Virus record (IMG/VR): IMGVR_UViG_3300025280_000062
Coordinates: 1-39,989 of that record
DNA: 39,989 nt
Source: a virus
Reading direction: 5' to 3' (one strand)
Position numbers and translations under genes: made by a program. Shown here in pieces: positions 665-36,337 of this stretch (the first letter of the stretch is position 1; each line of letters begins with the position of its first letter). Below the pieces are notes generated by a model. It saw only the letters and a program-made list of their open reading frames with translations, did not search any database and had not been told where the DNA came from.

Positions 665-1105
665 ATGCGAAATTTGAACGGCTTATTACACCCGGGCGAG
701 CGGGTGGACTGGAGTCAGTACCCATGGCGCAAGCCGCAGGAAGGCGACATCGTCCGGGCGCGGCCCCTGTTTGATTTGGACCCGCAGGACACACAGCCGG
801 ACAGCCACGTGGTGTCCCTGCTGACGGACTGTGTGGTGCGGAACCCGGCGCCCTCGGTCAACCCGGGGCTGACCCTGTTCAGCTTCTGGGACATCCACGG
901 GCACCCGCTGCCGGGGCCGGAGCGTCGGTACTCCGAGTACGAGTTCCGGCCGAGCGCCGCTTGGAGCGGGTGCTCCTACTGGGGCGAGGAGCTCTGGTAT
1001 TCCGACTGGATACCCCTGTACGCCATTAAACCGCCCCTGATAGGGGCTTACGCGGCCCGGCTGGCCCGCCGGGCGGAAATGCAACGATTGGGAGTGTACG
1101 CATGA
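665..1105 (+). CDS. Hypothetical protein, 146 aa
   Basis: First gene after the 603-631 promoter, with a good ribosome site (GAGGAGAA) before ATG 665. The product is rich in Trp, Tyr and Pro (for example PAAWSGCSYWGEELWYSDW), soluble, without membrane segments or a motif I recognise. Its stop overlaps the ATG of the next gene by four bases (ATGA, 1102-1105), suggesting translational coupling with the SSB-tailed protein. Function unknown; its position in the promoter-proximal slot suggests early expression. Confidence 0.7.
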   Translation: MRNLNGLLHPGERVDWSQYPWRKPQEGDIVRARPLFDLDPQDTQPDSHVVSLLTDCVVRNPAPSVNPGLTLFSFWDIHGHPLPGPERRYSEYEFRPSAAWSGCSYWGEELWYSDWIPLYAIKPPLIGAYAARLARRAEMQRLGVYA

Positions 1106-1398
1106 GCTTTGACAACACCAACAAGGGCGCTCTGTTTAAAAACGACAACCAAACCAACGAGCGCCAACCTAACCTCCGGGGATTCGTGAACATCGAGGGC
1201 CGGGAGTACTGGGTCAGCGGCTGGACAAAAACCGTGCAGGGCGGCCCCCGGGCCGGGCAGAAGATGATTTCCATGGCGCTGGAACCCAAGGACGACCAGC
1301 CGCCAACGTCTGCACCGGAAGGCCAGCGTCCACCGGCCCCGTCACAGGGTGGCCAGCCGCCGGAGGACGATTTCGACGATGATATCCCTTTTAACTAA
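1102..1398 (+). CDS. Small protein with SSB-like acidic C-terminal tip
   Basis: A 98-residue protein. The N-terminal half (about residues 6-62) has beta-rich sequence with GALFKND and YWVSGWTK patterns seen in small phage or plasmid proteins of the DUF736 type. The centre is a low-complexity Pro/Gln/Gly linker, and the C-terminus is EDDFDDDIPFN. The latter matches the acidic Asp-Asp-x-Ile-Pro-Phe tip with which bacterial SSB recruits its partner proteins, here followed by one extra Asn. Domain-linker-tip order is that of SSB, so a single-strand-binding or SSB-mimic role is inferred; the length is too short for a classical full OB-fold SSB plus linker. Coupled to the preceding gene by ATGA. 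Confidence 0.65.
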   Translation: MSFDNTNKGALFKNDNQTNERQPNLRGFVNIEGREYWVSGWTKTVQGGPRAGQKMISMALEPKDDQPPTSAPEGQRPPAPSQGGQPPEDDFDDDIPFN

Positions 1399-3007: not shown

Positions 3008-3448
3008 ATGATCGAGGATATTGGCAAGGCCCCCATCGCCCCGCAAGACGTACCACGGGGCCGCCCGAATTGCGGTGTCGTGGCGCTGGCCCACTTTACC
3101 GACCAGCCCTACGCCCGGGTTGAGCGCTTTATTGGTAAACGCCGGTCAAGCCGCTGGCGGGGCGTCAGCAACCGGCTGGACTACGCCGCATTCTTTGCCC
3201 GGATTGGCCTGCCGGTGGTGCGGGGCCGGGGCAAGGACCACGGCGAGGGCGAAACCCTGCTGCAGTGGGTCAACCACCACGCGCAGCCCGGGCGCCGGTA
3301 CATGGTGATCACCACGGGTCACGCTCAGGTGGTTTACGACGGCAAGGTCCTGGACCAGCACGACGGCGAGATGGTGCCGGTGGAGCGCTTCCACTGGAAG
3401 CGGAAGCGGGTGCGGTCTTGGTACATGGTCGACGGGGAGGAAGCGTAA
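3008..3448 (+). CDS. Papain-like cysteine protease-fold protein (C39-like)
   Basis: A 146-residue cytoplasmic protein directly behind the strong promoter at 2941. The N-terminal RPNCGVVALAHFT places C22 at the start of a helix, as in papain-like and C39 peptidases. GHAQVVYDG gives H105 on a strand, and VLDQ gives D117 at the expected spacing, completing a Cys-His-Asp set. No secretion signal or ABC-transporter fusion is present, so this is not a bacteriocin exporter. Similar small phage proteins exist and are of unknown substrate; cleavage or modification of a host protein is only an inference. Ribosome site AGAAGGAG before ATG 3008; stop overlaps the next start (TAATG). Confidence 0.6.
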   Translation: MIEDIGKAPIAPQDVPRGRPNCGVVALAHFTDQPYARVERFIGKRRSSRWRGVSNRLDYAAFFARIGLPVVRGRGKDHGEGETLLQWVNHHAQPGRRYMVITTGHAQVVYDGKVLDQHDGEMVPVERFHWKRKRVRSWYMVDGEEA

Positions 3449-3669
3449 TGAGCCAGCACACCACCTCCTGGACCGTGGCCATGGCGGTCATTCAGTGGCA
3501 GCTTGCCAAACCGGGGACGCACGTCCCCACCGTGGCCCGGGCAACCGGGCTGTCCGCCGCAACCGTGCGGCGCTGGCGGGACAACCCGCCCAAGACCCGC
3601 CCGGGCATACCGACGTTCGTGGCGCTGGCGGGCTACTACGACATGACAATCAGCTTTGAATGGGAGTGA
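3448..3669 (+). CDS. Small helix-turn-helix protein A (73 aa)
   Basis: A 73-residue protein starting at ATG 3448 in a TAATG overlap with the upstream stop. Residues about 28-45 (VPTVARATGLSAATVRRWRD) are a clear helix-turn-helix. The following GIPTFVALAGYYDM is echoed in the protein at 3996 (LAVAGYSALKV), so the two are probably paralogues. No effector domain is present, which suggests a small DNA-binding regulator. Confidence 0.65.
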   Translation: MSQHTTSWTVAMAVIQWQLAKPGTHVPTVARATGLSAATVRRWRDNPPKTRPGIPTFVALAGYYDMTISFEWE

Positions 3670-3673
3670 TACC

Positions 3674-3994
3674 ATGAGCGACAAAACAACAGCCTCTGAG
3701 GCCCGCATTATTCGAGACGAGTGGTGGGACGAGGTGCAGCTCGCCCTGACTACCTTGTACGCACTGGCACCGCTGGAGCACCCGAACAGCCCGTGCCTCA
3801 GTGTGGCGGTGGGCACCGGGCTGGACCCGGAGACTGGGGGCACCATCCCGGCCTGCCGGGGCAAGGTAGCCGGGCCGGACAACGAAGTGAAAGGTTTTAG
3901 CGCCAACCCAACGAAGGAAGGGCTGGCGGTGATGCAAGAGGTTCGGGGTGTGCTGGAGCAACGACTGGCCGCCGCAACCGGGGAGGTTCACTGA
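3674..3994 (+). CDS. Hypothetical protein, 106 aa
   Basis: An acidic, soluble 106-residue protein. The start at ATG 3674 follows GGGAGTGAT, the overlapping stop region of the previous gene; a TTG 18 bases upstream is less likely. It contains two predicted helical ends and a loop-rich centre (VGTGLDPETGGTIPACRGK). It is not recognisably a helix-turn-helix protein although it lies between two that are. Function unknown. Confidence 0.6.
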   Translation: MSDKTTASEARIIRDEWWDEVQLALTTLYALAPLEHPNSPCLSVAVGTGLDPETGGTIPACRGKVAGPDNEVKGFSANPTKEGLAVMQEVRGVLEQRLAAATGEVH

Positions 3995-3995
3995 C

Positions 3996-4394
3996 ATGGA
4001 TAACCTTGTTGACTACATCCGCAACCACACGGGGCTCACTGTGACGGCCTTTGCCGAGGCCATTGGCCGGGACCGGCAGACCGTGCGGAACTGGTGGGAC
4101 AATCAGGACCCCCTTCTACGGCTCGCTGTGGCGGGCTACAGTGCCCTGAAGGTGAAACCCGGCCAATGGTACTACCCGGGGGCGTTGGACGGGCCTGTGG
4201 TTGTCCACGGGCCGTATTTAGTGGACTTGCTGGAGGAGGCCGAACACGCGGGGCACACCCTGCAGTTCTTGGCCGGGCACCTTGAGGGCCGGATGGGCGA
4301 CGGGGCACTGGCGGAAATGGAGTGCAATGGCCGCGACACCGCGGAAGCCGTAAACCTTGTGACAGGTGGGAGGGAGATTGGTGATGAACAATAA
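3996..4394 (+). CDS. Helix-turn-helix protein B (132 aa)
   Basis: A 132-residue protein from ATG 3996, immediately after the previous stop. Residues about 13-35 (LTVTAFAEAIGRDRQTVRNW) form a Cro/XRE-like helix-turn-helix, followed by LAVAGYSALKV, the same trailer as in helix-turn-helix protein A. The C-terminal two thirds (from about residue 50) are acidic and helical, possibly a dimerisation or partner domain. Candidate regulator of the nearby control regions. It overlaps the next gene by 11 bases. Confidence 0.65.
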   Translation: MDNLVDYIRNHTGLTVTAFAEAIGRDRQTVRNWWDNQDPLLRLAVAGYSALKVKPGQWYYPGALDGPVVVHGPYLVDLLEEAEHAGHTLQFLAGHLEGRMGDGALAEMECNGRDTAEAVNLVTGGREIGDEQ

Positions 4395-4804: not shown

Positions 4805-5079
4805 CAGTGTACTAGCCATTAGGCCATTCGGAGTCTATTCGACTGCGAATGGCCTTTTTTGTGCGTAAAAACAACACGTTACGCGGGTTAATTTGCCTTA
4901 CACGTGCGCGGGGGTTATGAAAACAAAAAACAAAACACCCGAGGTCGTGCAATATCGCGAATATGCGAATATAGTTAAGCAAAAACAAGGACTTACGTGT
5001 ATTCGTGGTTGTATTAGCCATTAGCAGGAGTAATAGTTCCAGGAAAAACAGGAACTTATAAATGCCTTTCCAACGCGGG
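4805..5079 (+). repeat. Regulatory cassette, copy A (repeat of 24092-24368)
   Basis: This AT-rich non-coding segment is colinear with 24092-24368. Shared anchors at equal or nearly equal spacing are CAGTG, CCATTAG (4816), a terminator with GCGAATGG in the 3' arm, CCTTACACGTGCGCGGGGG (4896), the 20-base GCGAATATGCGAATATAGTT (4957-4976), CTTACGTGTATTCGTG (4992-5007), CCATTAG (5018), GTAAT(A)..TTCC (5030) and CCTTTCCAACGCGGG (5065-5079). Spacing from the 20-mer to the last block is 108 bases in both copies. The rest of the 4777-5194 gap is the promoter at 5090 and the leader of terS. No credible gene lies here. Confidence 0.85.
4822..4860 (+). terminator. Rho-independent terminator after the early accessory block
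   Basis: GGCCATTCG (4822-4830) pairs with CGAATGGCC (4846-4854). An inner AGTC/GACT stem extends the helix around a TATTC loop, and six T residues follow (4855-4860). It ends transcription of the 3008-4776 group and insulates the structural operon. Confidence 0.9.
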
Positions 5080-5089
5080 CTTTAAATGC

Positions 5090-5118
5090 TTGCACTGGTT
5101 ATTGTTTTTCAGTATACG
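5090..5118 (+). promoter_or_regulatory. Sigma70-like promoter of the structural operon
   Basis: TTGCAC (5090-5095), a 17-base spacer and TATACG (5113-5118) form a good sigma70-type promoter about 75 bases upstream of terS. It lies just downstream of cassette copy A. A second possibility inside the cassette is TTGCCT (4893) with TATGAA (4916) at 17-base spacing. Confidence 0.6.
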
Positions 5119-5194
5119 CGCGCACGCGCAAGGGGCCGGGCGCTACCCTGTACCCTGTCCAGCCTGTATACTGCAGGGCAAAGGAGGAAGCACT

Positions 5195-5728
5195 ATGGCA
5201 ACCAAGAAACAACCGGACCGGGTGGCCAAGAAGCGGGCGGAGCGGAGCACCCTGCCGGGGTCCCCTGTTCCCAAGAGCGAGCGCATACCGCTGAAGCGGG
5301 GCCGGCCGAGCACCTGTACGCCCGCCGTATGCGACGAGGCCCGCTGGTACATGCAGGGCGGCTGGAAGCTGGTGGGTGACGTCATTCCGTCCATTGTGGG
5401 TATGGCCTGCGAGGTGGGCATACCGGAGACGCAGGTGTACGAGTGGGCGCGTATAAACGACGATTTTTCCCAGATAATTAAGGGCATCAAGGCGGAGCAG
5501 CAACGGGTACTCCTGTCCGGCGGCGCCAGCGGCAAGTTGAACAGCACCATCACGAAGCTCCTGCTAGGCAAACACGGCTACCACGAGAAGGTGGATTCCA
5601 GCATCACCAACCCGGACGGCAGCATGACCCCGCAGCCCACCACCATCAACATCAAGGGCCGTGGCCCCGGTGGCAAAAACGACAACCCCCGGGCGGGCTG
5701 GCACGTGGACCGCGACGGCGATGACTGA
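5195..5728 (+). CDS. terS: Terminase small subunit
   Basis: A 177-residue protein just before terL. A basic N-terminus (KKRAERS, KRGRPST) is followed by a helix-turn-helix region (residues about 60-90: IVGMACEVGIPETQVYEWAR) and the family signature GKLNSTITKLLLGKHGYHEKV, known from terminase small subunits of the gp3 DNA-packaging type (PF16677-like). It would recognise the packaging site and assemble as a ring with TerL. ATG 5195 was chosen over the longer frame because AAAGGAGGAAG lies at ideal distance and the extra upstream residues come from the leader. It overlaps terL by eight bases. Confidence 0.88.
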   Translation: MATKKQPDRVAKKRAERSTLPGSPVPKSERIPLKRGRPSTCTPAVCDEARWYMQGGWKLVGDVIPSIVGMACEVGIPETQVYEWARINDDFSQIIKGIKAEQQRVLLSGGASGKLNSTITKLLLGKHGYHEKVDSSITNPDGSMTPQPTTINIKGRGPGGKNDNPRAGWHVDRDGDD

Positions 5729-8320: not shown

Positions 8321-9167
8321 CCGCCACACCCTGTCCGTGAACGCGGAGTTCCGGCGCGACCCCACCCGCAGCAAAACGCTCCGCCAACGGTTCGTGACGC
8401 AGTTCAACAAGCGCTGGCGGGCGGTGCTGAAGGAGCTGGACAGCTTCATGGTGCAGGCCCCGGCCCTTATGGCAAACCGGGATTACGACTTCCCGGTGGG
8501 GCCGCTGGACACCGCCACGGTGCTGGACTTCGTGAACGAGGCCGTTCGCGCCAACGTGATGGACCCGCAGGAGGCCATGAGGGTAGTCCGGGAACGCGGG
8601 GTGCAGCCGCAGCCGGGCAACTGGGTGGAGGAGTACCTGTACGCAGCGTATGAAAAGGGCGTCCGCCGGGCGCAAAACGAGGTCAACCGTAAGCTGCCGG
8701 AGGGCCGCAAGGTGGCGCTCATGGAAGGGGCCATCAAGCGCAAGAACCACCAGCAAAAGATGGAGCAAATCCTCGGTCGGGTTTACACGGACCTGCAGGG
8801 CATTAACGAGGCCATGGAAGCCGGCATCCGCCGGGAAATTGCACTGGGCTTGGAGCAGGGGCAGGGAACCGCCGCCATTGCCAAGCGTATCCGCGACCGG
8901 GTGGAAAAGATTGGCCGCACCCGCTCCCGGGTACTGGCCCGCACCGAGGTGATCCGCAGCCACCACACCGCCAACGTCGCCACCTACCGTGAAGCGGGCG
9001 TCCGTGGCGTCACGGTGCAAGCGGAGTTTGCCACCGCCGGGGACCAGCGGGTCTGCGAGGATTGTGCCGGGCTGGAGGGCGCGGAGTATACGCTGGCGGA
9101 GGTGGAAAACCTGATTCCTGTTCACCCGAATTGTAGATGCGTTGCCATTCCCGTCGTTGACGTGTAA
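8313..9167 (+). CDS. Minor head / head morphogenesis protein (SPP1 gp7-like)
   Basis: A 284-residue protein with the C-terminal phage Mu F / SPP1 gp7 domain (PF04233). The signature runs from ARTEVIRSHHTANVATYREAG to CEDCAGLEGAEYTLAEVENLI and ends HPNCRCVAIPV, with paired cysteines C-x2-C and a terminal C-R-C. The N-terminal half is helical and probably contacts the portal. It is incorporated in few copies and is needed for head assembly or DNA ejection in relatives. The start ATG 8313 overlaps the portal stop; a GTG nine bases earlier is possible. Confidence 0.9.
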   Translation: MCNRHTLSVNAEFRRDPTRSKTLRQRFVTQFNKRWRAVLKELDSFMVQAPALMANRDYDFPVGPLDTATVLDFVNEAVRANVMDPQEAMRVVRERGVQPQPGNWVEEYLYAAYEKGVRRAQNEVNRKLPEGRKVALMEGAIKRKNHQQKMEQILGRVYTDLQGINEAMEAGIRREIALGLEQGQGTAAIAKRIRDRVEKIGRTRSRVLARTEVIRSHHTANVATYREAGVRGVTVQAEFATAGDQRVCEDCAGLEGAEYTLAEVENLIPVHPNCRCVAIPVVDV

Positions 9168-14245: not shown

Positions 14246-14806
14246 ATGTCAGGCGTAACCACCGAAACAGTTAAAAGCATGATCATCGATGCCGGGGCCG
14301 TGTTTGCGGACTACGGCGAAACCAACGAGCGCATCCTCGGCGCTACCCGCGAGGGCGCCAGCTTCCTGATTGAGCAGGAAGTGCGCGAAATTCCAATCGA
14401 CGGGGTCCGTGGCCCGCTGAAGGGTGGCCGCCGGGTTATTTCCGAACACGCCCGCATCACCGCCAACCTGCTGGAAATGACCCCGGATAACCTGTCCCTT
14501 GCCCTGCTGGGCAGCTCCGTGGACAGCACCACGGAACCGGACACCAGCATCATCACGCGGGAAAACGTGTTCCCGAAGGCTTCCGAATATCTTAAGAACG
14601 TGGCCCTTGTAGGCCGCCGGCAGGACACCGGGCAGGACGTAATCTTCATCATCAAAAACCCGCTGGCGGACGGCAACTTCGAGCTGGAAACCACGGACGA
14701 CGACGAAGCCAGCTTGGAGGTGCAGTTCACCGCCCACTTCGACCCGGCGGACGTTACCATTAGCCCGTGGGAAATCCGCGTACCAACACCGGCGACAGGA
14801 GGTTAA
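14246..14806 (+). CDS. Major tail tube protein
   Basis: A 186-residue beta-rich protein placed before the tail chaperones. Conserved points for siphovirus tail tube proteins are ADYGETNERILGATREGASFLIEQEVREIPIDGVRGPLKGGRR near the N-terminus and a C-terminal set of strands (ASLEVQFTAHFDPADV). It would polymerise as hexameric rings to form the tail tube. A ribosome site GGGGGCAC precedes ATG 14246. Confidence 0.85.
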   Translation: MSGVTTETVKSMIIDAGAVFADYGETNERILGATREGASFLIEQEVREIPIDGVRGPLKGGRRVISEHARITANLLEMTPDNLSLALLGSSVDSTTEPDTSIITRENVFPKASEYLKNVALVGRRQDTGQDVIFIIKNPLADGNFELETTDDDEASLEVQFTAHFDPADVTISPWEIRVPTPATGG

Positions 14807-17374: not shown

Positions 17375-19308
17375 TGCCGGTATTCGGGGAGTTCAGCCAG
17401 TCCGTTACCGTTGGGGGCCGCCCGGCTTACGTGCGCGACCTTGCCATCAAGGAAAGCAGTTCGGAGCGGGTGGCCGCCATCGACTTCGTCCTGGAACCCC
17501 TGCAGGTGCCCGGGCAAGAAGCCGCCATGGCTGCAGCCTACATCGGGGAACCCGTTACTGTTACCCAAACCGTGGACGGGGCCTCGCAAACGTGGCAGGT
17601 GATTATCACCAACGTGGACGAGCGCCGGAACGGGGCCGCCACCTTCAAGCGGGTGCAGTGCCGGTCACTGGAGTACGTCGCCAGCCACACCCGGTTCCTG
17701 GACGTGTGGCGCCGCACAGGCGCCAGCACGGTCGTCCTGCAAGCATGGCAGCGCCACACTCAGGGCACCCCGGCGCTTCGCGACGTGTCGCTTGCTGGGG
17801 TGGCTACAAACAACGCCCTGATCGAGGAGTACGCCAGCAAGTACGACAGCCTGTACGACCTCATGGAAGAAGTGTGCCTGCTGACCGGGTGGGCGTGGAA
17901 GGTGCGCGACGGGGTGCTGTACTTTTTCGACCCGCTCTCCAACCCCGGCCCGGACTTGACCCAAGGTAGCGGCGCCACCGTGCGCGACACCCTGCAGCTG
18001 AAGCAGAGCCTTGAGGGCGTCTACAACGTGTACCGGGGGCAGGGCTGGTCCTACCGGACTTTCACCATTGGCCGGAACTTCGAGTCCTTTGACTGCATAG
18101 GCGGTTTCACCTTCAGCCCGTCCCTGCTGGACGGGGTCGAGGTGGTGGGGGAACCCCGCATCGTGCAGCAAAAATGGCGCGACATGGGCCTCAAGGTGCA
18201 GAACGTGGACCCGGACGGCATAGTGGAGCTGAACAAGTCCATCCTTGCCAGCAACGTGGTCAACGGGTACTTGAGCGTCGCGATACGGGTGCGGGGCATC
18301 CACTGGGTCGAGCGCTTCGACCGCCAGTCTATCGAGCTGTACGGGCGCCGGGACGCCCCGCCCCTGTCCGACAACGGGGGCGACAACATCCGGGCGGTGA
18401 CCCGCAAGCTGGACGAACTGCTTAAATACCGGGCGTATCCCGCATACGATGTGACCTTGGACGTGGTGGGGGTAGGCTGGGAACCGGATCAGGTGGTTCA
18501 GACAACCCTGTACGACCCCGCCTTCAGCGCCCCGTTGTACGTGACCGAGGTGCAGCGCACCACCGACGGCACGGACTTGAATGTGTCCGTAACGCTTACC
18601 AGCCCGAGCGAGGTGGTGGAAGGGCAGCAAGTGCCACCGACGCAAGCCCGGCGCAGCCGGAGCGGGGTGGACCCGGCCTACGAGATAGGCCGTCGGCTTG
18701 AGCGGCTGGAGCGCCGGAACGCGCACCCGGCTTCCCCGCTGGGGGTTAACACGGACGTGGACGGGGTGCTGGGCGGCACCTACGAGGAGGCAGAAAACAC
18801 AGGCTGGAGCCAGAGCGTATCCGCCCGGGATATCGGGGAAACCACCGGGGACAGCGCCGGGTGGGGCGCAGCCACCGGGGTCAAGCAGTTTACGCACGTT
18901 CCGGTTCAAAGCGGCTGGGCTGGCCGCACAGTGCCGGTCCTGCAGCCGCCCGTAATTGAAGCCGCATCCGGCTGGACCGCCAGTGCCGAGGCCATGCTGG
19001 CTGAGATGCGGGCGTTGTCTACGGACACCGGCTGGTCCGAGGCGGTAACTTTCCGGGACATAACCACCACCAGCCCCGGGGAGACCCAAGGGTGGGGGCA
19101 GCAAACCAGCTTCCGGGACATCACCGATACGGCGGGCTCCCGGGGTAGCTGGACCGGGCGCGTCTCCGTGCGGGAAATTACCTTGGACGGCGGCCTGAGC
19201 GTGGATGCGGACGTGCCAGTGGCCGGGGCAGCGCTGAGTGTAGACGCGGACGTGCCCCTCGGGGATACACCTTTGCACACGGACGAGGACCTACCGTTCG
19301 GCGGGTAG
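17374..19308 (+). CDS. Large minor tail protein with C-terminal repeats
   Basis: A 644-residue protein following the tape measure, the position of distal tail or baseplate hub proteins. Residues 1-450 are beta-rich with hub-like features (VQCRSLEYVASHTRFLDVW, YDLMEEVCLLTGWAWKVRDGVLYFFDP, then TRKLDELLKYRAYPAYDVTLDVVGVGWEPDQVVQ). From about residue 475 the sequence changes to six or seven degenerate repeats of about 20-30 residues built around G-W-x(4)-V-S-F-R-D-I-T, and the last 40 residues carry three copies of a D-x-D-V/L-P motif (DADVPVAG, DADVPLGD, DEDLPFGG). The repeats may be a host-range or assembly surface. Stop of the tape measure and this start overlap by one base. Confidence 0.78.
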   Translation: MPVFGEFSQSVTVGGRPAYVRDLAIKESSSERVAAIDFVLEPLQVPGQEAAMAAAYIGEPVTVTQTVDGASQTWQVIITNVDERRNGAATFKRVQCRSLEYVASHTRFLDVWRRTGASTVVLQAWQRHTQGTPALRDVSLAGVATNNALIEEYASKYDSLYDLMEEVCLLTGWAWKVRDGVLYFFDPLSNPGPDLTQGSGATVRDTLQLKQSLEGVYNVYRGQGWSYRTFTIGRNFESFDCIGGFTFSPSLLDGVEVVGEPRIVQQKWRDMGLKVQNVDPDGIVELNKSILASNVVNGYLSVAIRVRGIHWVERFDRQSIELYGRRDAPPLSDNGGDNIRAVTRKLDELLKYRAYPAYDVTLDVVGVGWEPDQVVQTTLYDPAFSAPLYVTEVQRTTDGTDLNVSVTLTSPSEVVEGQQVPPTQARRSRSGVDPAYEIGRRLERLERRNAHPASPLGVNTDVDGVLGGTYEEAENTGWSQSVSARDIGETTGDSAGWGAATGVKQFTHVPVQSGWAGRTVPVLQPPVIEAASGWTASAEAMLAEMRALSTDTGWSEAVTFRDITTTSPGETQGWGQQTSFRDITDTAGSRGSWTGRVSVREITLDGGLSVDADVPVAGAALSVDADVPLGDTPLHTDEDLPFGG

Positions 19309-19760: not shown

Positions 19761-20167
19761 TGCCTTGTAGCTTCCGCCTACGCACCAAAGACCCGGACGG
19801 TAACTGGCAGGACCTCGAGTTTGAAGAACTGCTCAAGGAGGACGGCCCCAAAAACACCATCCAGGATTTTAGTTTTGGGGACATGGACCAGCTCTTGGGC
19901 CTACAACCGGACGGGGAAGGGGGCTTCAGCCTCACAGCCCGGTCCCGTGACGGTGCTTTATACAACCCGGATTTTTCCGACCTTTTCGATGAGGAGGGAG
20001 ACCAACTTCTGGACGGTACGGTGTATACCGAAGTCGAACGGCAGGTGGAAGAGGTTACAGTGGGGGAGGAACCAAACACCGTCACCATCGAGCGCATGAC
20101 CTCGGTTACGTTTGAAGGCCCGGGCGGCGGTAAGCTAACACTCCAGTTCAACAACCCACCAGTATAG
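19760..20167 (+). CDS. Hypothetical tail-region protein (135 aa)
   Basis: A 135-residue acidic protein (for example FEELLKEDGPKNTIQDFSFGDMDQLL and DFSDLFDEEGDQLLDG) with a beta-rich C-terminal part. The order (acidic helical, then beta) and position suggest a tail-tip or fibre connector. It is joined to both neighbours by close or overlapping boundaries. Function not recognised. Confidence 0.6.
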   Translation: MPCSFRLRTKDPDGNWQDLEFEELLKEDGPKNTIQDFSFGDMDQLLGLQPDGEGGFSLTARSRDGALYNPDFSDLFDEEGDQLLDGTVYTEVERQVEEVTVGEEPNTVTIERMTSVTFEGPGGGKLTLQFNNPPV

Positions 20168-20177
20168 GACAAGGGTT

Positions 20178-20747
20178 ATGACGCTTAACGCAACACCACT
20201 CAACAGCGCCCCGCTAAACGCCCCCGGAACCACGGAGGCCGGTGGCGCGTTCTACGATTCTTGGTACAGGACCGTCCGCTCCCATCAGGGCATCGTGGCC
20301 CCGGGCGTGGCCGTCCATGTTTACAACGCAGTGGACCGCAACAACCCGGAAAGCGAGGACAACACCCCGGCCACCCTGTACGCGGACGCCGCAGGGGAGC
20401 AAAGTTTGGACAACCCGTTCACCACGGGCTCCGACGGTGTGGCCCTGTTTCACGCTGCAGCCGGTTTTTACCACGTCAAGTTCGTGCAGGGCGCCGACGT
20501 CCTGTGGCTGAAAAACCAGCCCCTCGGTGACATGAAGGCGCAGAGCGCGGATGCGGTTGACCTGCTATCCGGGGCTCTAGCTGGTGTGGACTTCACGAGC
20601 GCGGCGGCTCTGGTTCACGGGCTTCTTGCGAGTTACGACTTCCGTGCCCTGCCGGATTGCGCGGATGACACTGAAGCTGCTGCCGCCGGGGTTTCCGCCG
20701 GGGCCTTATACCGGACGGGAAACAACATTAAAACGCGCTTGACTTAA
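20178..20747 (+). CDS. Tail fibre-like protein (189 aa)
   Basis: A 189-residue protein beginning with the repeated T/S-x-PLN motif (TLNATPLNSAPLNAPGTTE) seen in several phage structural proteins. Residues about 40-115 form a beta-sandwich-like domain with VHVYNAVDRNN, ATLYADAAGEQ and GVALFHAAAGFYHVKF, a pattern common at the N-terminus of tail fibre proteins. The C-terminal part is helical. It is directly upstream of a YadA-repeat adhesin, so both probably belong to the receptor-binding apparatus. Confidence 0.65.
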   Translation: MTLNATPLNSAPLNAPGTTEAGGAFYDSWYRTVRSHQGIVAPGVAVHVYNAVDRNNPESEDNTPATLYADAAGEQSLDNPFTTGSDGVALFHAAAGFYHVKFVQGADVLWLKNQPLGDMKAQSADAVDLLSGALAGVDFTSAAALVHGLLASYDFRALPDCADDTEAAAAGVSAGALYRTGNNIKTRLT

Positions 20748-20757
20748 TAGGTGACTT

Positions 20758-21759
20758 ATGAGCTTTATCTATGTTAACAACCTGAAAACCACGCTGCTGG
20801 AAGCTGTCGACGATATCGCGGAAGAACTAACGCTGGTACGTGCGGGGACCGAGCTGGACTCCGTGCTCCAATCCGGCAACCTAAGCTGGAACGCTGGCGA
20901 CGGTACAGCGGACGAGGTGGTGCCCCTTACACTCGTTCCTGCCGGCGTTGCGAACCCGGCCCTGTCCGATGTGGAGGTGGTGTACGTGGTGGGTGGTAGC
21001 GCCCCGACTGTCCAAGTGAAACGCGGGCAGGCCGGGACCACGGCTAAAAACTGGGAAGCCGGGGACACCGTGGGGTGTTTCTTGCTGAATGATGCGATTT
21101 ACCAGCCTTCCGGGAGCGTAAAGCTCGGAGGAAACGCTGCCGCCCTGTATGATGGCGCGGTTAGTATTGGTTTCGATAGTCACGCATATAACGAAGGGGC
21201 GGTTGCCATCGGGAATAACGGCGGGTCCTCGGCCACCAATGCCGTCTCCGTCGGTACGGGAAGCGACACCACCGGGGCCTCATCGTTGGCCCTTGGGCAC
21301 AACGCATCGGCCAAGGCGGATTACGGTGTGGCTATTGGTTCCGGCTCATTGGGCGTGGCTTCCCGGATCATTGCCCTTGGTGTGGATACCGAAGTCAGCG
21401 GTGACTCGGGGGTAGCTATTGGGGATGGCGCTGCTTGTAGAACGCCGAACAGCATCAGCATCGGAACCGACTCGGAGTCGGTGTCGCCACATGGCATATC
21501 CATCGGCACCGGGGCGTTCAATGCCGGGGGCGTTGCACTTGGGCGAAACGCTAATACAACAACGCAGAATGGCGTTGCGCTGGGGGAGGACACAACCACC
21601 ACGGCAGGCAATCAAGTGCACGTCGGCGACCGGGATCTGGAGCTTGGCACCGACACCAGCCCTCGCGGCATCCACCTCTACAGCCCGGACGGCACCCGCT
21701 ATAAGATTACAGTGGACGATACTGGTGCACTGTCCGCTACTGCTGACCCGCTGGCATAA
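20758..21759 (+). CDS. Tail adhesin with YadA-head-like repeats
   Basis: A 333-residue protein. Residues about 1-115 are a globular N-terminal domain that includes VPLTLVPAGVANPALSDVEVVYVVGGSAPTVQVKRGQAG. Residues about 130-290 contain around ten 14-16-residue repeats of the type A-x-A-x-G-x(6-8)-G-A/S (AVAIGNNG, SLALGHNASA, GVAIGSGSL, GVALGRNANT, GVALGEDTTT), the left-handed beta-roll of trimeric autotransporter (YadA-like) heads. The end is a short unique domain. This fold usually forms a trimeric fibre for binding cells. The stretch is lower in GC than the capsid genes. Confidence 0.8.
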   Translation: MSFIYVNNLKTTLLEAVDDIAEELTLVRAGTELDSVLQSGNLSWNAGDGTADEVVPLTLVPAGVANPALSDVEVVYVVGGSAPTVQVKRGQAGTTAKNWEAGDTVGCFLLNDAIYQPSGSVKLGGNAAALYDGAVSIGFDSHAYNEGAVAIGNNGGSSATNAVSVGTGSDTTGASSLALGHNASAKADYGVAIGSGSLGVASRIIALGVDTEVSGDSGVAIGDGAACRTPNSISIGTDSESVSPHGISIGTGAFNAGGVALGRNANTTTQNGVALGEDTTTTAGNQVHVGDRDLELGTDTSPRGIHLYSPDGTRYKITVDDTGALSATADPLA

Positions 21760-21769
21760 GGAGACCGTA

Positions 21770-22192
21770 GTGACTGAGCGCCACTACGACCCAAGCAACC
21801 GACCCCCGGAGGCTTGCGAGCGCCGGGGCGGCCCTACGGCCCCCATCTGGTCCAAGCTCAACGAGCATGAAACGGACATCCGGGAGCTGTATAAAACCAC
21901 CGCCCGGGCGCACGAGAGGGTCAACAGCACGAACGAAACGGTGCTGTACCTCCGCGAGGACATCCGGGAGTGGAAGGAGCAAACGCACCGGGACAGCACC
22001 AACATCCTGAAGGAGCTACGGGCCTCCAATGAGCGGATGGCGGTGGCGGACCAACGGCTGGCGGAGCAGGCCGGGGTCGCTCAGGGCCGGTGGGAGGCTG
22101 TGAAAGTGGGGCTGCCCATCGGCTTGACCGTGGCCGGGTTAACCATTACCGGGTTAGTGGCTCTCAACAAGCTGGGAATCCTTGGGGGCTGA
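21770..22192 (+). CDS. XhlA-like membrane protein
   Basis: A 140-residue protein starting at GTG 21770, with AAGGAG six bases upstream. Residues about 20-105 are a long, charged coiled coil (NETVLYLREDIREWKEQTHRDSTNILKEL...). Residues about 115-135 are a single C-terminal membrane helix (VGLPIGLTVAGLTITGLVALNKL). This is the plan of haemolysin XhlA proteins (PF10779), which work with holin in lysis. A longer frame from 21419 overlaps the adhesin and is not used. A separate two-helix holin lies downstream. Confidence 0.65.
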   Translation: MTERHYDPSNRPPEACERRGGPTAPIWSKLNEHETDIRELYKTTARAHERVNSTNETVLYLREDIREWKEQTHRDSTNILKELRASNERMAVADQRLAEQAGVAQGRWEAVKVGLPIGLTVAGLTITGLVALNKLGILGG

Positions 22193-22193
22193 T

Positions 22194-22892
22194 ATGGTGT
22201 TTGAGGGGGCGTTTCAGAACATTGTGGATTACACAGCCGGGGGCGGTGGCCCTTTCCGAACGTTTATCTGCCAACGCGGAGATCGCGACGGTGCATACTC
22301 GGACCAACCATATCAGTCTTTTGGTGATTGTGGGGCTAGTTTGGACCCCTGCTCTGGGATGAGCAGCAAGTTACTGTTCGGGTATGAAACTGGACGCCAG
22401 TTACGTATCAAGCTGCAGGGTGTTAGGGATTATTATCTGGACGAAAACAGTAACCTCCAAAGCACAACCGCTGAATTTGACTCCCCATTACTCATCTACA
22501 CCGGGCCGTTCGTTCCAAACGGCGCAATCAACAAGGAATTCGCCTCCCCGTTGTCGCTATTCGATGACCGCAGCACATACACCCCGACGGACGTGTATGT
22601 GACGGGGTTCCCTGAGATTGACGAACAGCAACCGTTCTACCGGGATAACGCGACGGGCCTTGGCACGTACACTAGGCCGCTTGAGGGGGGCTACTGCTGT
22701 GCCTACGGCATGAGAGCACGCCCGGCTGGCCCGGCGTCTTTTTCTCTCGAACCAGACTTCTGGTTCCGTGATTTGCCGACTTTTGCGTACAACGGAGTGG
22801 AATACCGGATTGTGGCGGTCCGCAATATCACGTATGACTGGCCGGAAACTTTCACGGATCAGTCATATGAAATGGTTGCGGAGCCTGTATAA
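22194..22892 (+). CDS. Hypothetical protein of atypical composition (232 aa)
   Basis: A 232-residue protein beginning MVFEGAFQNIVDYTAGGGGPF. It is rich in aromatic residues, has about six cysteines (RTFICQRGD, FGDCGASLDPCSG, GGYCCAYGMR) and a beta-rich, extracellular-looking sequence without signal peptide or membrane segment. The coding sequence is clearly less GC-rich than neighbouring genes and uses more A/T-ending codons, which suggests recent acquisition. It is inserted between the XhlA-like gene and the endolysin. It could be an accessory tail-tip/receptor protein or a lysis-linked moron; no family is recognised. Confidence 0.65.
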   Translation: MVFEGAFQNIVDYTAGGGGPFRTFICQRGDRDGAYSDQPYQSFGDCGASLDPCSGMSSKLLFGYETGRQLRIKLQGVRDYYLDENSNLQSTTAEFDSPLLIYTGPFVPNGAINKEFASPLSLFDDRSTYTPTDVYVTGFPEIDEQQPFYRDNATGLGTYTRPLEGGYCCAYGMRARPAGPASFSLEPDFWFRDLPTFAYNGVEYRIVAVRNITYDWPETFTDQSYEMVAEPV

Positions 22893-22904
22893 GAAGGAGG
22901 CATG

Positions 22905-23354
22905 ATGCAGTATTTTAAACCGGAAGAGTTCCAAGGGTGGTTTGACCAGTTAAGCCCCGCCCTCAAAAGCAACTTGGACGCCCTGCGGGGCAAGTGGGGG
23001 CGGCCCATTGTGGTGAGCCCGGCACCCGGGGCGGTAGGCCGCCGCCTTGGGGGCACAGCCACCAGCCAGCACAACGTGGACCGCTGGGGCGAGGTGCGGG
23101 CGGTGGACGTCATGCCCTACGGCATAAGCACCGCCAGCGACGCGCGACTGTTCCGCTGTCTGGCGGAGGATTGCGGCTTTACCGGCATCGGGTTCTACCC
23201 GGACTGGAACCCCCGGCCCGGTTTCCACTTGGATATCCGGATAACCGAGCGCGAGGGTTACGTGGCTCAGTGGGGTGGCGTCAAGCAAAACGAGGAGCAG
23301 GTATATGTCGGCATGGCGGAAGCGCTTAACACGTTTGAGCGGGCTGGCGGATAA
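22905..23354 (+). CDS. Endolysin, M15 family peptidase
   Basis: A 149-residue enzyme of the M15 D-Ala-D-Ala carboxypeptidase fold (PF08291-like). Zinc ligands fit the family: H56 in TSQHNVDRWGEVRAVDVMP, D68 in the same segment, and H108 in GFHLDIR. This enzyme would cleave peptidoglycan cross-links. No signal peptide is present, so it relies on the downstream holin. I prefer ATG 22905 because AAGGAGG (22894-22900) is only one base from ATG 22902. The last 50 bases overlap the holin gene. Confidence 0.88.
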   Translation: MQYFKPEEFQGWFDQLSPALKSNLDALRGKWGRPIVVSPAPGAVGRRLGGTATSQHNVDRWGEVRAVDVMPYGISTASDARLFRCLAEDCGFTGIGFYPDWNPRPGFHLDIRITEREGYVAQWGGVKQNEEQVYVGMAEALNTFERAGG

Positions 23355-23553
23355 GCACCGGCTCCACAGCAAGCTGGCCCTGTGGTGGGCCGTGGCCCTG
23401 ACGACCTTCGTGGTTGAGCGGGTTACGCGCCCGGAGGTGCTGGACGGTGCCACGGGCGCCGGGGGCACGATAGCGGTCGCCGCCATTGGCATCCTGGCCA
23501 CGGTGGTCGGCCTGTATAAGGACGTCCGGGCGGGGGTGCAGGATGCTGAGTAA
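23305..23553 (+). CDS. Holin (two membrane segments)
   Basis: An 82-residue protein from ATG 23305 with GAGGAG seven bases upstream. After a basic N-terminus (SAWRKRLTRLSGLADKHRLHSKL) come two hydrophobic helices (LALWWAVALTTFVVERV and GGTIAVAAIGILATVVGLYKDV), the topology of class II holins. It lies between endolysin and i-spanin and overlaps both. It would open the inner membrane to release or activate the endolysin. The longer in-frame ORF starts inside the endolysin and is less likely. Confidence 0.78.
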   Translation: MSAWRKRLTRLSGLADKHRLHSKLALWWAVALTTFVVERVTRPEVLDGATGAGGTIAVAAIGILATVVGLYKDVRAGVQDAE

Positions 23554-23926
23554 ATTTCTGGCCAGCAAGTGGGTGACGGTCCTGCTGATACTGGCGTTAG
23601 CCGGGGCCGGGTGGTACGTGTACCAGCAAGGCCGCCAGCTCGGTGAATTACAGGGGGCGAAGGATGAACTGGAACAGGTACAGGCCGACCGCGACCGTAA
23701 GGCCGCACAGCTCGCCACACAGGCCGAACTCCTGGAGGCAGTACGGGTGCAGGGGGCGAGGCAAGAACGTCGCATACTGGAAGCGCTGGACAGCGCCAGC
23801 GAAGAGTTCCGCCGTTGCTTTGACATGCCTGTTCCTGACGGCTTGCGCCTCGAGCAGGACGCAGAGCTGCGAACCCCCGGACAGCACGTGGATGATGGAA
23901 GTAGCGGAGCCAACCCGCCGGGGTGA
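23543..23926 (+). CDS. i-spanin (Rz-like)
   Basis: A 127-residue protein from ATG 23543. An N-terminal membrane anchor (WVTVLLILALAGAGWYVY) is followed by a long coiled-coil periplasmic domain (QLGELQGAKDELEQVQADRDRKAAQL..., ARQERRILEALDSASEEFRR). This matches inner-membrane spanins of the lambda Rz type, which fuse inner and outer membranes in the last step of lysis, confirming a Gram-negative host. The partner o-spanin is nested in another frame of the same DNA. Confidence 0.85.
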   Translation: MLSKFLASKWVTVLLILALAGAGWYVYQQGRQLGELQGAKDELEQVQADRDRKAAQLATQAELLEAVRVQGARQERRILEALDSASEEFRRCFDMPVPDGLRLEQDAELRTPGQHVDDGSSGANPPG

Positions 23927-24029
23927 AACCTTGGGGGCCTATTACTGGTGGAGCAAGGACCTCCAGCAAGCGCTGGAGCGGTGCAACCTGTACCAGCAAC
24001 AGGAGCGGGCGCACTACCTCGGTGAGTAG
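23664..24029 (+). CDS. o-spanin (Rz1-like lipoprotein), embedded in another frame
   Basis: In a frame different from Rz, a lipobox LTACASS places the lipidated cysteine at codon 23844-23846 after a hydrophobic stretch (AVALTCLFLTAC). The mature part is 61 residues, as in Rz1-type o-spanins. It ends at 24029, past the Rz stop. The start is uncertain: ATG 23664 gives an unusually long 60-residue leader, while TTG 23820 gives a very short one; neither has a clear ribosome site. The mature lipoprotein and its overlap with Rz are convincing. Confidence 0.72.
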   Translation: MNWNRYRPTATVRPHSSPHRPNSWRQYGCRGRGKNVAYWKRWTAPAKSSAVALTCLFLTACASSRTQSCEPPDSTWMMEVAEPTRRGETLGAYYWWSKDLQQALERCNLYQQQERAHYLGE

Positions 24030-24091
24030 GGGTTGCCCGGGCCGCCCGGGTGCGGTAGGGTAGTTCCGTCGCCATGACAACCTCCTCTCAT

Positions 24092-24368
24092 CAGTGCTGT
24101 ACCCATTAGCCCTATTCGCAGGTTATTAGCCCGCGAATGGGGCTTTTTGCGTTTATGGTCAACCACTTACGCACACGCCAGCCCCTTACACGTGCGCGGG
24201 GGGGTTCTAAAATAAATTTTGTTTTTACCGTGGTCGGCCATTTTTGCGAATATGCGAATATAGTTCAATAAAAACAGGGGCTTACGTGTATTCGTGCCCG
24301 TATTGGCCATTAGAACAGGTAATAACTTCCGTTAAAACAGGGACTTACAAGTACCTTTCCAACGCGGG
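24092..24368 (+). repeat. Regulatory cassette, copy B (repeat of 4805-5079)
   Basis: The second copy of the cassette, upstream of the replication operon. Anchors are CAGTG (24092), CCATTAG (24103), a terminator with GCGAATGG, CCTTACACGTGCGCGGGGG (24184), GCGAATATGCGAATATAGTT (24246-24265, identical over 20 bases), CTTACGTGTATTCGTG (24281-24296), GGCCATTAG (about 24306), GTAATAACTTCC (24319-24330) and CCTTTCCAACGCGGG (24354-24368). Block spacing equals copy A within two bases. The remaining part of the 24030-24460 gap contains a GC hairpin (24036-24050) and a weak promoter near 24389. No credible gene lies here. Confidence 0.85.
24108..24148 (+). terminator. Rho-independent terminator after the lysis genes
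   Basis: AGCCCTATTCGC (24108-24119) pairs over 12 bases (one G-T) with GCGAATGGGGCT (24133-24144), followed by a T-run to 24148. It ends the structural/lysis transcript and sits at the same place in cassette B as the 4822-4860 terminator in cassette A. Confidence 0.88.
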
Positions 24369-24388
24369 AACAACCGTATTCTTTTATG

Positions 24389-24418
24389 TTTACAAAACCC
24401 CTGCCCCGCGCGTAACGT
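24389..24418 (+). promoter_or_regulatory. Possible promoter of the replication operon
   Basis: TTTACA (24389-24394) and TAACGT (24413-24418) with an 18-base spacer form a moderate sigma70-like pair upstream of the SF2 helicase gene. Its leader contains CAAGAACGCACAGAACG, like the leaders of the promoters at 603 and 2941 (AAGAACG). Confidence 0.4.
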
Positions 24419-24460
24419 AAGGGGCCTTACTGCAAGAACGCACAGAACGAGGAACACGGT

Positions 24461-26038
24461 ATGGACTACAAGTTCAAGACCGAGCCCCTGCCACACCAGC
24501 GCGAGGTGTTCGACCTGTCCAAGGACATGGCGAACTTCGGGCTGGTAATGCCGCAGGGGACCGGCAAGACGAAAGTGACCATGGACACCATGGGCTACAA
24601 CTACGCCCGGGGCCGCATAGAGGCGGCGGTGGTTATTGTGCCTTCCGGGCTTCAGCGCAACTGGCTGGAAAAGGAACTGGGCAAGCACTGGCCCGACCAC
24701 CTGCCCGTCCAGACGTTTGGGTGGGAGTCCACCCCCACCACCAAAAAAGCGAAGGCGGAAATGGAGGCCCTGTTCGACCCGGCCCCGGGCGAGCGCTTCC
24801 GGCTGGTGGCCATCCACTACGAGGGCACGTTAACGGAGCCGGGGAAGAAGTTCCTGTGGCGCCTGTTCCGCAACTTTGCCACCATGGTCGCGGTGGACGA
24901 AAGCCAGTACATCAAAACCCCCGGCGCCAAACGGACCCGGCTGGTGCGTAACGCGGGCAAGGCGAAGGGGGTGGTCATGAAGCGGTTCCTGACCGGCACC
25001 CCCATCACCCAAGGCCCGTTCGACATCTACGCCCCGTTTGCCTTCCTGGACCCGAACATCATCGGGCACAGCACCTTCACCGCCTTCAAGGCCCATTACG
25101 GGGAGTTCGAGACGAAGGTGTTCGCCGGGTGCGGGCGCTACGACCCCCGCACGGGCATCCGGCACGACGCCGTGGTCAACGAGGTGGTGGGCTACAAGAA
25201 CATGGACGAGCTGGAGTCGGCGGTGGGGCCGTACAGCTACAGCGTCGACAAGGCCGTGCTCAACCTACCGGAGAAGGTGTATAAAACCCGGTATGTCAAA
25301 ATGACGCCGAAGCAGCGCCGGGTCTACAACGACCTGCTGAACGAGGGGGTGGCCAACCTCGGCGACCTGCCCCCGGGCACCACCCCGGAGGACGCACTGT
25401 GGGAAGCCATTACGCAGGAGGGTGACAAGGTGCTGGCGGAAAACGCCCTTGTCCTGCAGATGCGGCTCCAGCAAATCGTGGGCGGCTGGTACGTCAACGA
25501 GCAGGGGGAAGCCGTGCCGGTGGACACCAAAAACCCCCGGCTGGAGGCCCTGCTCACGGACCTGGAGCACCAGCACGAGAAGGCCGTTATCTGGTGCCGG
25601 TTTAAGCACGAGGCGGACGCCATACTGGCGGCCCTTAACGAGCGGGCCAAGACCACGGGCCGGGGCGCCGTGGGGTACTACGGCAACATACCGGAGGAGG
25701 AGCGCTGGCCGAACGCCGTGGCCTTCCAGGAGTGCGACCCCCGGGCCTTCTACATGGTGGCCACCCCGGACACCGCCGGGCGGGGCTTGGACTTCTACAA
25801 GGCCGGCTCCAGCCGGTATTACAGCCGCTCGTTCAACTACGAGCACCGCAGCCAGTCCGAGGACCGGATGCACCGCCACGGCTTCGAGGGTGACTCGGCC
25901 CTGTACGTGGATTACTGTGTGCCGGGCACCATCGACGAGAAAATTACAGACGCCCTGCAGATTAAGGACAACCTTGCAAAGAGCTTCCAATGGGGCGTAG
26001 GCTTAAACCCTAGAACGCAAGAAGGGGACAACAAATGA
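24461..26038 (+). CDS. SNF2/DEAD-like SF2 helicase
   Basis: A 525-residue ATP-dependent helicase/translocase. Motif I is PQGTGKTK (residues 31-38), motif II is DESQ (146-149) in VAVDESQYIKTPGAK, motif III is FLTGTPI, and the C-terminal RecA domain has motif VI QSEDRMHRHG. The arrangement and the LTGTPI and DR-x-HR-x-G signatures fit the SNF2-like branch of SF2 rather than a replicative ring helicase. It opens the replication operon directly behind cassette B, so it may help initiate replication or remodel protein on DNA. It overlaps the next gene by four bases. Confidence 0.9.
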   Translation: MDYKFKTEPLPHQREVFDLSKDMANFGLVMPQGTGKTKVTMDTMGYNYARGRIEAAVVIVPSGLQRNWLEKELGKHWPDHLPVQTFGWESTPTTKKAKAEMEALFDPAPGERFRLVAIHYEGTLTEPGKKFLWRLFRNFATMVAVDESQYIKTPGAKRTRLVRNAGKAKGVVMKRFLTGTPITQGPFDIYAPFAFLDPNIIGHSTFTAFKAHYGEFETKVFAGCGRYDPRTGIRHDAVVNEVVGYKNMDELESAVGPYSYSVDKAVLNLPEKVYKTRYVKMTPKQRRVYNDLLNEGVANLGDLPPGTTPEDALWEAITQEGDKVLAENALVLQMRLQQIVGGWYVNEQGEAVPVDTKNPRLEALLTDLEHQHEKAVIWCRFKHEADAILAALNERAKTTGRGAVGYYGNIPEEERWPNAVAFQECDPRAFYMVATPDTAGRGLDFYKAGSSRYYSRSFNYEHRSQSEDRMHRHGFEGDSALYVDYCVPGTIDEKITDALQIKDNLAKSFQWGVGLNPRTQEGDNK

Positions 26039-26376
26039 CCGTATACGTGGTGCAAGAACCCGTGAAGAAAGTGGCTGGCGAAGTGGTGCCGGCGCTGGAC
26101 CTGAGTCCGGCGGTAGCTTACGGGGAGCTGGACTTTCTGCTGCCCTCCGGCAACGTATCGCTCGCACCGGCCCCCATGGTCCGGGCGCTGCGAAAAAAGC
26201 TGGTCAGCTTTACGGACGACGATTACCTGCTGGCGGTGGGTAGCCCCTCCGCCATCGCAACCGCCGCCGCCGTGGCGGCGGACTTAAACCGGGGCCGGTT
26301 CAACCTGCTGCAGTGGGACCGCAGGGAGGGCCGGTACTACAACATTCCAGTCAACATCCATGGGGGTGCAGCATGA
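26035..26376 (+). CDS. Conserved phage hypothetical protein (113 aa)
   Basis: A 113-residue protein. The block YGELDFLLPSGNVSLAPAPMVRALRKKL and the later DYLLAVGSPSAIATAAAVAADLNRGRFNLLQWDR look like a conserved early phage protein family found near replication genes, with no assigned function. It starts in an ATGA overlap behind the helicase (ribosome site GAAGGGG) and ends the same way before the next gene, so these three are co-translated. Confidence 0.75.
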   Translation: MTVYVVQEPVKKVAGEVVPALDLSPAVAYGELDFLLPSGNVSLAPAPMVRALRKKLVSFTDDDYLLAVGSPSAIATAAAVAADLNRGRFNLLQWDRREGRYYNIPVNIHGGAA

Positions 26377-26933
26377 TTGATTTCGAGCAGGACACAGAGC
26401 AGGAACAGGCCGCCGGGCCAACCGATAGCGATCTGCGGAAGGTGGCCACACTGGCGGAGCGTCAGGTGGAGCTGGAAGCTGAGGTGGAGCACCTTGCGGA
26501 CGAGCTTAAACAGGCCAAAGAGCGGCTCCGCAAGGTGGCCGAGGTGGAGCTGCCGGAGCTACTGCTCAACGAGCTGAATATGTCCATGTTTGCACTGGCG
26601 GACGGCACCACCGTCGAGGTGAAGGATTCGCTCAAGTGCAGCGTTCCCAAGAAGAACTTGAAGCAGGTGGCGCAATGGCTGGTGGACCACGGGCACGGGG
26701 CGCTGGTTAAGCGTGACGTCACCCTGCCGTTCGACAAGGGCCAGGAGCAGCAAGTGGAGGACCTCACCAACATGCTCCTGGACAACGGCTTCAGCCAATT
26801 TGCTGTCAACGAGGCGGTTCACACGGGCCAGCTGAAAAAGCTGATCCAGGAGCTTGAGGAAGAGGGGGAGGACGTGCCCCTGTCCATGTTCGGGGCCTAC
26901 CACCACAAGGCCAGCACCGTCAAAAAGAAGTAG
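26373..26933 (+). CDS. Conserved phage coiled-coil early protein (186 aa)
   Basis: A 186-residue protein from ATG 26373 (ATGA overlap). Residues about 20-70 are coiled coil (LAERQVELEAEVEHLADELKQAKERLRKVAEVELPELLL). Residues about 75-180 hold a folded part with FALADGTTVEVKDSLKCSVPKKN, DHGHGALVKRDVTLPF and EEGEDVPLSMFGAYHHKAST. Such proteins are common beside phage polymerase and primase genes and are of unknown function. Followed by an 80-base gap with a GC hairpin (26956-26982). Confidence 0.75.
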   Translation: MIDFEQDTEQEQAAGPTDSDLRKVATLAERQVELEAEVEHLADELKQAKERLRKVAEVELPELLLNELNMSMFALADGTTVEVKDSLKCSVPKKNLKQVAQWLVDHGHGALVKRDVTLPFDKGQEQQVEDLTNMLLDNGFSQFAVNEAVHTGQLKKLIQELEEEGEDVPLSMFGAYHHKASTVKKK

Positions 26934-26955
26934 GGGCACCGCCCCGCCGGCTTGA

Positions 26956-26982
26956 GCCCGGGGGCCGTAAAACAGCCCGGGC
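26956..26982 (+). other. GC hairpin between early genes
   Basis: GCCCGGG (26956-26962) pairs with CCCGGGC (26976-26982) over a 13-base loop. No T-run follows. Probable mRNA processing or stability element, since 27012 onward continues in the same direction without a clear promoter. Confidence 0.4.
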
Positions 26983-27011
26983 AAACCCAAACTGAAAGAA
27001 GGTGAATAACC

Positions 27012-27836: not shown

Positions 27837-27853
27837 CCTGCCGTAGCACCATA

Positions 27854-27879
27854 CCCCGGGCGCCCTGCCCGGGGTTTTT
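27854..27879 (+). terminator. Rho-independent terminator
   Basis: CCCCGGGC (27854-27861) pairs with GCCCGGGG (27867-27874) over a five-base loop, followed by five T residues (27875-27879). The primase gene begins 15 bases later (ATG 27894, ribosome site TGGAGG), so partial termination would set primase below the upstream protein. Confidence 0.88.
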
Positions 27880-27893
27880 CTCTGGAGGTAGCA

Positions 27894-30910: not shown

Positions 30911-30933
30911 GTGAAATTTTTTGCGAAAAAGGG

Positions 30934-30962
30934 TTGCAAAGGCCGAAAATCGTGCGTATATT
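30934..30962 (+). promoter_or_regulatory. Sigma70 promoter of the zinc-finger/winged-helix gene
   Basis: TTGCAA (30934-30939), a 17-base spacer and TATATT (30957-30962) form a very good sigma70 promoter in the 113-base gap after the helicase. The surrounding bases are AT-rich. No GTTCC motif occurs here, so control differs from the 603 and 2941 promoters. Confidence 0.75.
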
Positions 30963-36336: not shown

Positions 36337-36337
36337 T

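Follow-up and report, generated by a model that had tools for sequence, protein, structure and literature searches.

Why does the genome of one bacterial virus carry the same non-coding cassette twice, once ahead of its structural genes and once ahead of its replication genes? The window analysed here, the whole 39,989-bp IMG/VR record, has all its genes on the plus strand in our own gene reading, and an initial annotation had described the cassettes at 4805–5079 (A) and 24092–24368 (B) as colinear, with identical blocks of up to 20 bases and equal block spacing. Pairwise alignment bears out this description: a blastn comparison of 24030–24460 with the rest of the window returned exactly these coordinates, in a 278-column alignment that is 70.9% identical and scores 159 bits (E=1.4e-41), far above the best matches of 40 segments of 430 bp drawn at random from this genome (median 28 bits, maximum 41). 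No identical block is longer than the 20-mer GCGAATATGCGAATATAGTT, found genome-wide at these two places only, and block spacing is preserved save for single-base indels. Homology reaches beyond the annotated ends, to an inverted CCTTACACGTGCGCGGGG box just 5′ of each start codon. The exact 20-mer is absent from IMG/VR, a search of a phage collection with 24080–26080 in distant mode gave no DNA-level match, no Rfam family in the window reached its gathering score, and no cyanobacterial HIP1 repeats that might hint at a host were found.

Only two intergenic regions of the genome are long (418 and 431 bp, lengths that rest on our own gene choice), and the cassettes fill both. A follows the last of the early genes and precedes the terminase genes; B lies between the lysis genes and an SNF2-type helicase gene. 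Together they split the genome into a late block (about 5.2–24.0 kb) and an early/replication block that runs from 24.4 kb via the record ends to 4.8 kb. A close relative, G001 (helicase 88% identical), spans the cut: its sequence runs on from window position 39,972 and, after about 1.9 kb more, reaches position 190; most of the DNA polymerase gene sits in this added sequence, the window record being cut inside the gene (39452–39989 and 1–190). The window genome is thus circular or circularly permuted. Besides the genes listed here, the early block encodes further helicases, a sliding clamp and a row of QueE, QueD, FolE, QueC, DUF6884 and Tgt/DpdA-like genes at 33214–37243, likely a 7-deazaguanine DNA modification cluster.

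5195–5728, plus strand: small terminase, first gene after A, followed by large terminase, portal and capsid genes
24461–26038, plus strand: SNF2-type helicase, first gene after B, replication block
27894–29432, plus strand: AEP-type primase, replication block
1102–1398, plus strand: single-strand DNA-binding protein (SSB), of a family that divides twin-bearing from other phages

Two other helicase genes, at 29288–30910 and 31686–33101, both match phrog_1967, share a 50-bp stretch that is 78% identical and are probably a diverged duplication.

The anatomy of the cassettes was read from a four-copy alignment of A, B and both cassettes of G001. Each element begins with a terminator, followed by a TTAC box, the near-invariant CCTTACACGTGCGCGGGGG, an AT-rich tract, GCGAATATGCGAATA, the repeat R1 (AAAACAGGGRCTTACGTGTATTCG in the window), GTATTAGCCATTAG and the repeat R2 (AAAACAGGGACTTACAAGTACCTTTCCAACGCGGG in B), and then, near the start codon, by an inverted version of a CCTTAC...GGGG box.

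4821–4860, plus strand: intrinsic terminator at the start of A, ending the early (left) operon; 35-nt inverted repeat, −24.8 kcal/mol, z −6.2, then TTTTTT
24108–24149, plus strand: intrinsic terminator at the start of B, ending the late operon; −25.4 kcal/mol, z −4.9, then TTTTT
4891–5079, no strand assigned: core of element A, with the least stable 200-bp segment at 4916–5115
24184–24368, no strand assigned: core of element B, with the second least stable 200-bp segment at 24203–24402
4896–4914, plus strand: box b of A, CCTTACACGTGCGCGGGGG, with a CACGTG centre, near-invariant in the four-copy alignment
24182–24203, plus strand: box b of B, CCCCTTACACGTGCGCGGGGGG, from sequence and four-copy alignment
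4957–4976, plus strand: iteron pair GCGAATAT-GCGAATATAGTT in A, with the word TATTCG twice on the minus strand
24246–24265, plus strand: iteron pair GCGAATAT-GCGAATATAGTT in B; like that in A, identified by word enrichment, the pair occurring at these two places in the genome only
4981–5005, plus strand: repeat R1 of A, AAAAACAAGGACTTACGTGTATTCG, from the four-copy alignment
24270–24294, plus strand: repeat R1 of B, counterpart of R1 of A, same source
5044–5079, plus strand: repeat R2 of A, AAAAACAGGAACTTATAAATGCCTTTCCAACGCGGG, same source; its motif start is shared with R1
24334–24368, plus strand: repeat R2 of B, same source
5117–5136, minus strand: box b′ of A, an inverted, weaker copy of box b by the start codon, from sequence and four-copy alignment
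24404–24425, minus strand: box b′ of B, CCCCGCGCGTAACGTAAGGGGC, same sources

The terminators annotated initially at the start of each copy are well founded. Hairpins with a U tract that are more stable than shuffled sequences (z −4.6 to −6.2) occur in A, B and the late copy of G001, and the stem sequence of B differs from that of A with pairing retained. The exact 18-mer of box b of A is found outside A in G001 only, twice. The cassettes also take the lowest two ranks in helix stability among 200-bp segments of the window genome (G000), as do the two cassettes of G001 in theirs: mean stacking is −1.287 at 4916–5115 and −1.301 at 24203–24402 against a genome mean of −1.568 (s.d. 0.053), placing the minima about 5 standard deviations away. 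Besides the CCTTACACGTGCGCGGGG box, the cassettes hold the word TATT[CA]G (TATTCG or TATTAG). Its count is 10 in the two regions, 849 bp together, against 6 in the remaining 39,140 bp; none of 1000 composition shuffles reached a count of 10. General dyad symmetry was considered and set aside, a full-length palindrome being significant in the helicase-side copy of G001 only (z 5.4), with the remaining copies at shuffle level or explained by the terminator stem. No DnaA sites, IHF sites or initiator homologue were found in the cassettes.

G001 carries both cassettes and retains the shared blocks in each, which shows selection on several short sites, as had been proposed, and provides the conservation in relatives that had been suggested as a check. 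R1 and R2 shift jointly in G001, from CTTAC to GTTAC in most copies. In the four-copy alignment the two copies within a genome are 73% and 75% identical, compared with 65% and 70% between positional orthologues, and informative sites group by genome in 12 cases and by position in 4, a moderately strong signal from small numbers. That likeness within a genome equals or exceeds likeness between orthologues suggests either concerted evolution or one reader shared by both copies.

The initial annotation also placed a candidate promoter just downstream, for which no support was found. CTTACA-17-TAAAAT, the sole sigma-70-like site in copy B, is absent from A and from the G001 copies; no sigma-70 −35/−10 pair is conserved across both copies and the relative, and other scores were at shuffle level. 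Strong promoters, where they can be predicted in phages with twin elements, usually lie outside the twin, 20–90 nt 5′ of a gene, and in JeffCo, SH-Ab 15497, LKO4, PMBT28, Kokobel2 and G004 the top-scoring site falls between element and gene at one or both junctions. A promoter role for the shared part itself appears disfavoured, because the predicted internal sigma-70 sites are at shuffle level or not conserved and because copies that are mutually inverted, as in some phages described below, cannot both act as promoters of the operon that comes next.

Twin elements are not peculiar to the window. All 14 examined siphophages of the same layout, comprising YuA-like, Loki-like and Z-genome phages and two window-like lineages, have one: a second intergenic region matches the one 5′ of the helicase/primase block at 52–299 bits, compared with a median best match of 24–31 bits for random segments. 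A copy stands ahead of the helicase/primase genes in every case, and the pair is directly oriented in 6 phages and inverted in the other 8. Each lineage has its own repeated words (CTATCACA, GAGCAACCG, GAAACCG, TGGAACG, AAGTCGC and others), and in 13/14 phages words repeated in one copy recur far above expectation in the other, a count to be read with the overall similarity of the copies in mind. Named phages with twins and related replication genes are JeffCo, SH-Ab 15497, Acinetobacter phage 53, PMBT28, PSA28, Kokobel2, the Yuavirus LKO4, whose repeat TAAGTAAGT occurs 2+2 times, and the Bradleyvirinae AIIMS-Plu-RaNi, Ab19 and Epa5. In Kokobel2 and PMBT28 small genes split the second copy. 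Two relatives of the window's structural module, G002 and G004, have intergenic sequences quite unlike those of the window yet also carry twins, mutually inverted, ahead of the terminase genes and the primase, with words CTATCACA/TGTGATAG flanked by TTATTAG...CTAATAA. The core proteins of SH-Ab 15497, phage 53 and JeffCo are mostly 60–87% alike and their words differ (GAGCAACCG, GAAACCG and GGGGTAAC), so the words change fast. A cross-lineage 'end box' was rejected after inconsistent results of a regular-expression scan; the CACGTG beside TAA in JeffCo and SH-Ab 15497 is a visual resemblance only.

The distribution has a clear limit. None of 14 phages with the same helicase and other layouts has a twin element; 12 of these are viral records chosen for an AEP primase on a long contig, which have the helicase too and other gene orders, and the remaining pair are the podovirus-like ct3Et533 and G008. 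In one of the 12, G022, the start of the helicase has a single inverted match, a weak one (E about 1e-4), which does not make a clear twin. PB15, which shares the terminase only, has no twin element either. The twin tracks a unidirectional two-block layout and not the replication enzymes themselves. Among protein families, only that of the SSB separates twin from non-twin phages, present in 10/10 AEP-type twin phages and 0/14 others; an SSB is not expected to be sequence-specific, and we rejected it as the shared protein that binds the words. YuA-like phages have their own HTH protein instead of this family, and no HTH protein common to all twin phages was found. PDB searches with the gp33- and gp34-like conserved helicase neighbours gave nothing useful. 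In two relatives, G008 (14260–14540) and L134 (3633–3823), a very AT-rich segment, the least stable of the genome in G008, lies 5′ of the small terminase gene between facing, near-identical GC-rich hairpins.

What, then, might the paired elements do? We put the probability at about 0.5 that one phage factor binds the pair as iteron-type elements, which would most likely be two replication origins, a reading drawn from sequence comparison. The cassettes mark the two, and only two, junctions between the early/replication and late/structural blocks of a circular or permuted one-strand genome, each junction being organized as terminator, element, (promoter) and next operon. One phage-encoded DNA-binding factor may recognize the repeated words in both copies, which would explain why the words change together within a genome. 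Binding of the factor to the iterons would open the unusually unstable DNA, giving the early block's helicases, AEP primase and SSB a place to load and initiate replication, with the terminators shutting out transcription from upstream genes. Position by the replication genes, low helix stability, terminator insulation, free orientation and lineage-specific iterons all speak for origins. Weighing against them are the non-twin AEP/SNF2 phages, which show that the replication module does not need a twin; the unidirectional layout in two blocks, which would suit transcription control as well; low helix stability, which is expected of promoters too; and the lack of any DnaA box or initiator homologue in the cassettes. 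The structure model of the AEP primase (mean pLDDT 84) matches Prim-Pol structures in a PDB comparison, including RepB′ of RSF1010 at rank 7, with a weak winged-helix match, making the primase a candidate at most for the reader of the words.

The nearest precedent is Bacillus phage SPP1, whose two distant origins are alike in organization, with direct repeats and an AT-rich unwinding region (PMC6316719). SPP1 oriL and oriR resemble the window's cassettes as two distant, non-identical copies of an element in a siphophage genome of about 44 kb, with one copy in or beside replication genes (PMC6316719); the window likewise has two distant copies of one repeat-bearing element, each with an AT-rich, easily unwound segment. 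In SPP1, however, oriL lies inside gene 38 and the origins are about 13 kb apart, whereas both window elements are intergenic, at operon junctions; the twin elements, unlike those of SPP1, take either orientation between lineages; the SPP1 initiator is gp38 (G38P); and the window primase is of AEP type. Iteron arrays combined with a plasmid or phage primase, as proposed here, are found in RSF1010 oriV (RepC iterons, with RepB′ priming on hairpins) and in the origin of satellite phage P4, where alpha binds repeats; the role of the RepC repeats and ssi hairpins has been described, and P4 differs in the bacterial-type primase domain of its alpha protein (PMC4234260). RSF1010 differs in that no RepC-like protein was found in the window and that it has no pairing at two operon junctions. 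The pRN1-type plasmid origin is similarly a non-coding element beside an AEP primase, conserved between relatives in architecture and not in sequence (PMC4234260), but it is one long stem-loop and has no iterons. Rather tentatively, YuA-like, Loki-like, Z-genome and window-like siphophages may share a replicator plan of two orientation-independent iteron arrays at the early/late junctions, whose words diverge fast between lineages and are kept matched within a genome by a co-evolving phage initiator, gene conversion or both.

The most serious competitor, plausible although we would not bet on it, is that the elements are twin operator or enhancer regions, at which a phage repressor or activator reads the words and controls the promoter before each operon, co-regulating or separating the early and late blocks. 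Temperate phages have paired operators and stoperators, in which one word recurs at several control regions and words are lineage-specific. Each element has a terminator on one side and the opening gene of a block on the other, promoters are predicted 20–90 nt 5′ of genes in several phages, the G002/G004 words form palindromes such as GTGATAGGGTATCAC that are typical of HTH operators, YuA-like phages encode a tandem-HTH 'repressor' (LKO4 20903–21229), the window encodes weak HTH proteins at 3265–3669 and 3948–4394, and the replication module alone does not require the elements. Yet the copies are inverted in 8/14 phages, similarity runs over the whole length of a 200–400 bp array, canonical promoters elsewhere (early repeats of JeffCo and PMBT28; window 30934–30962) lack such words, the twin phages have no HTH protein in common that we could find, and the gene-interrupted second copy of Kokobel2 and PMBT28 is not directly 5′ of terminase. 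Operator/stoperator systems also scatter their words, whereas those of the window are confined to two arrays and no integrase was found. Of the two marks of a temperate-phage immunity region, an integrase gave no PF00589 match in G000, G001, G002 and G004, records that may be incomplete, and for a repressor there were weak HTH proteins only. The master switch suggested initially, which would co-regulate or separate the two halves of the genome, stands as regards position, the elements separating the operon halves; a switch is possible in the form of an operator array, and a paired origin-like element fits slightly better.

Packaging, recombination or partition sites, with repeats recognized by terminase or by a recombination/segregation system, seem unlikely. 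One copy usually precedes the small terminase gene, and the repeats of inverted phages could recombine and so flip half the genome, but the other copy is always at replication genes, the second copy of Kokobel2 and PMBT28 is kilobases from the terminase genes, and no tyrosine integrase was found in the four genomes just named. Least probable is a plain recent duplication of a terminator–promoter region whose repeats have no special function. The two copies are about 29% diverged, and terminators with nearby promoters are ordinary in themselves; however, blocks are conserved in two genomes while the filler diverges, and other genomes have independent twin elements with different words, comparative data by which this explanation is already largely refuted.

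Whichever function applies, the twin element itself is real and well supported, and the wider pattern in several siphophage groups is apparently undescribed: in open-access papers we found neither a description of it nor any replication origin that had been mapped in these phage groups, which are large and well sampled and some of which have DNA with known or predicted modifications (7-deazaguanine, Z base or hypermodified bases). A self-comparison of a genome suffices to find twin elements, which narrows the search for origins or master control sites to a few testable candidates, and the matched word set offers a handle for finding the protein that reads it.

Among sigma-70-like sites in the window genome the strongest is TTGCAA-17-TATATT at 30934–30962; it lies in a 104-bp gap, is free of cassette words and has a repeated counterpart in G001 at 8427–8528 and 17377–17471 (gene orientation). 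A strong conserved promoter, TTGAC[CA]-17-TATAGT, is present in the late intergenic region of G002 (about 35285–35313) and in G004 (1215–1243), where it points leftward into the twin element, against all neighbouring genes. Repeated early modules of promoter and ribosome site, distinct from the twin element, occur in JeffCo (35973–36041, 39248–39365 and 42112–42232), in PMBT28 (35248–35336 and others) and in G008 (19824–31473).
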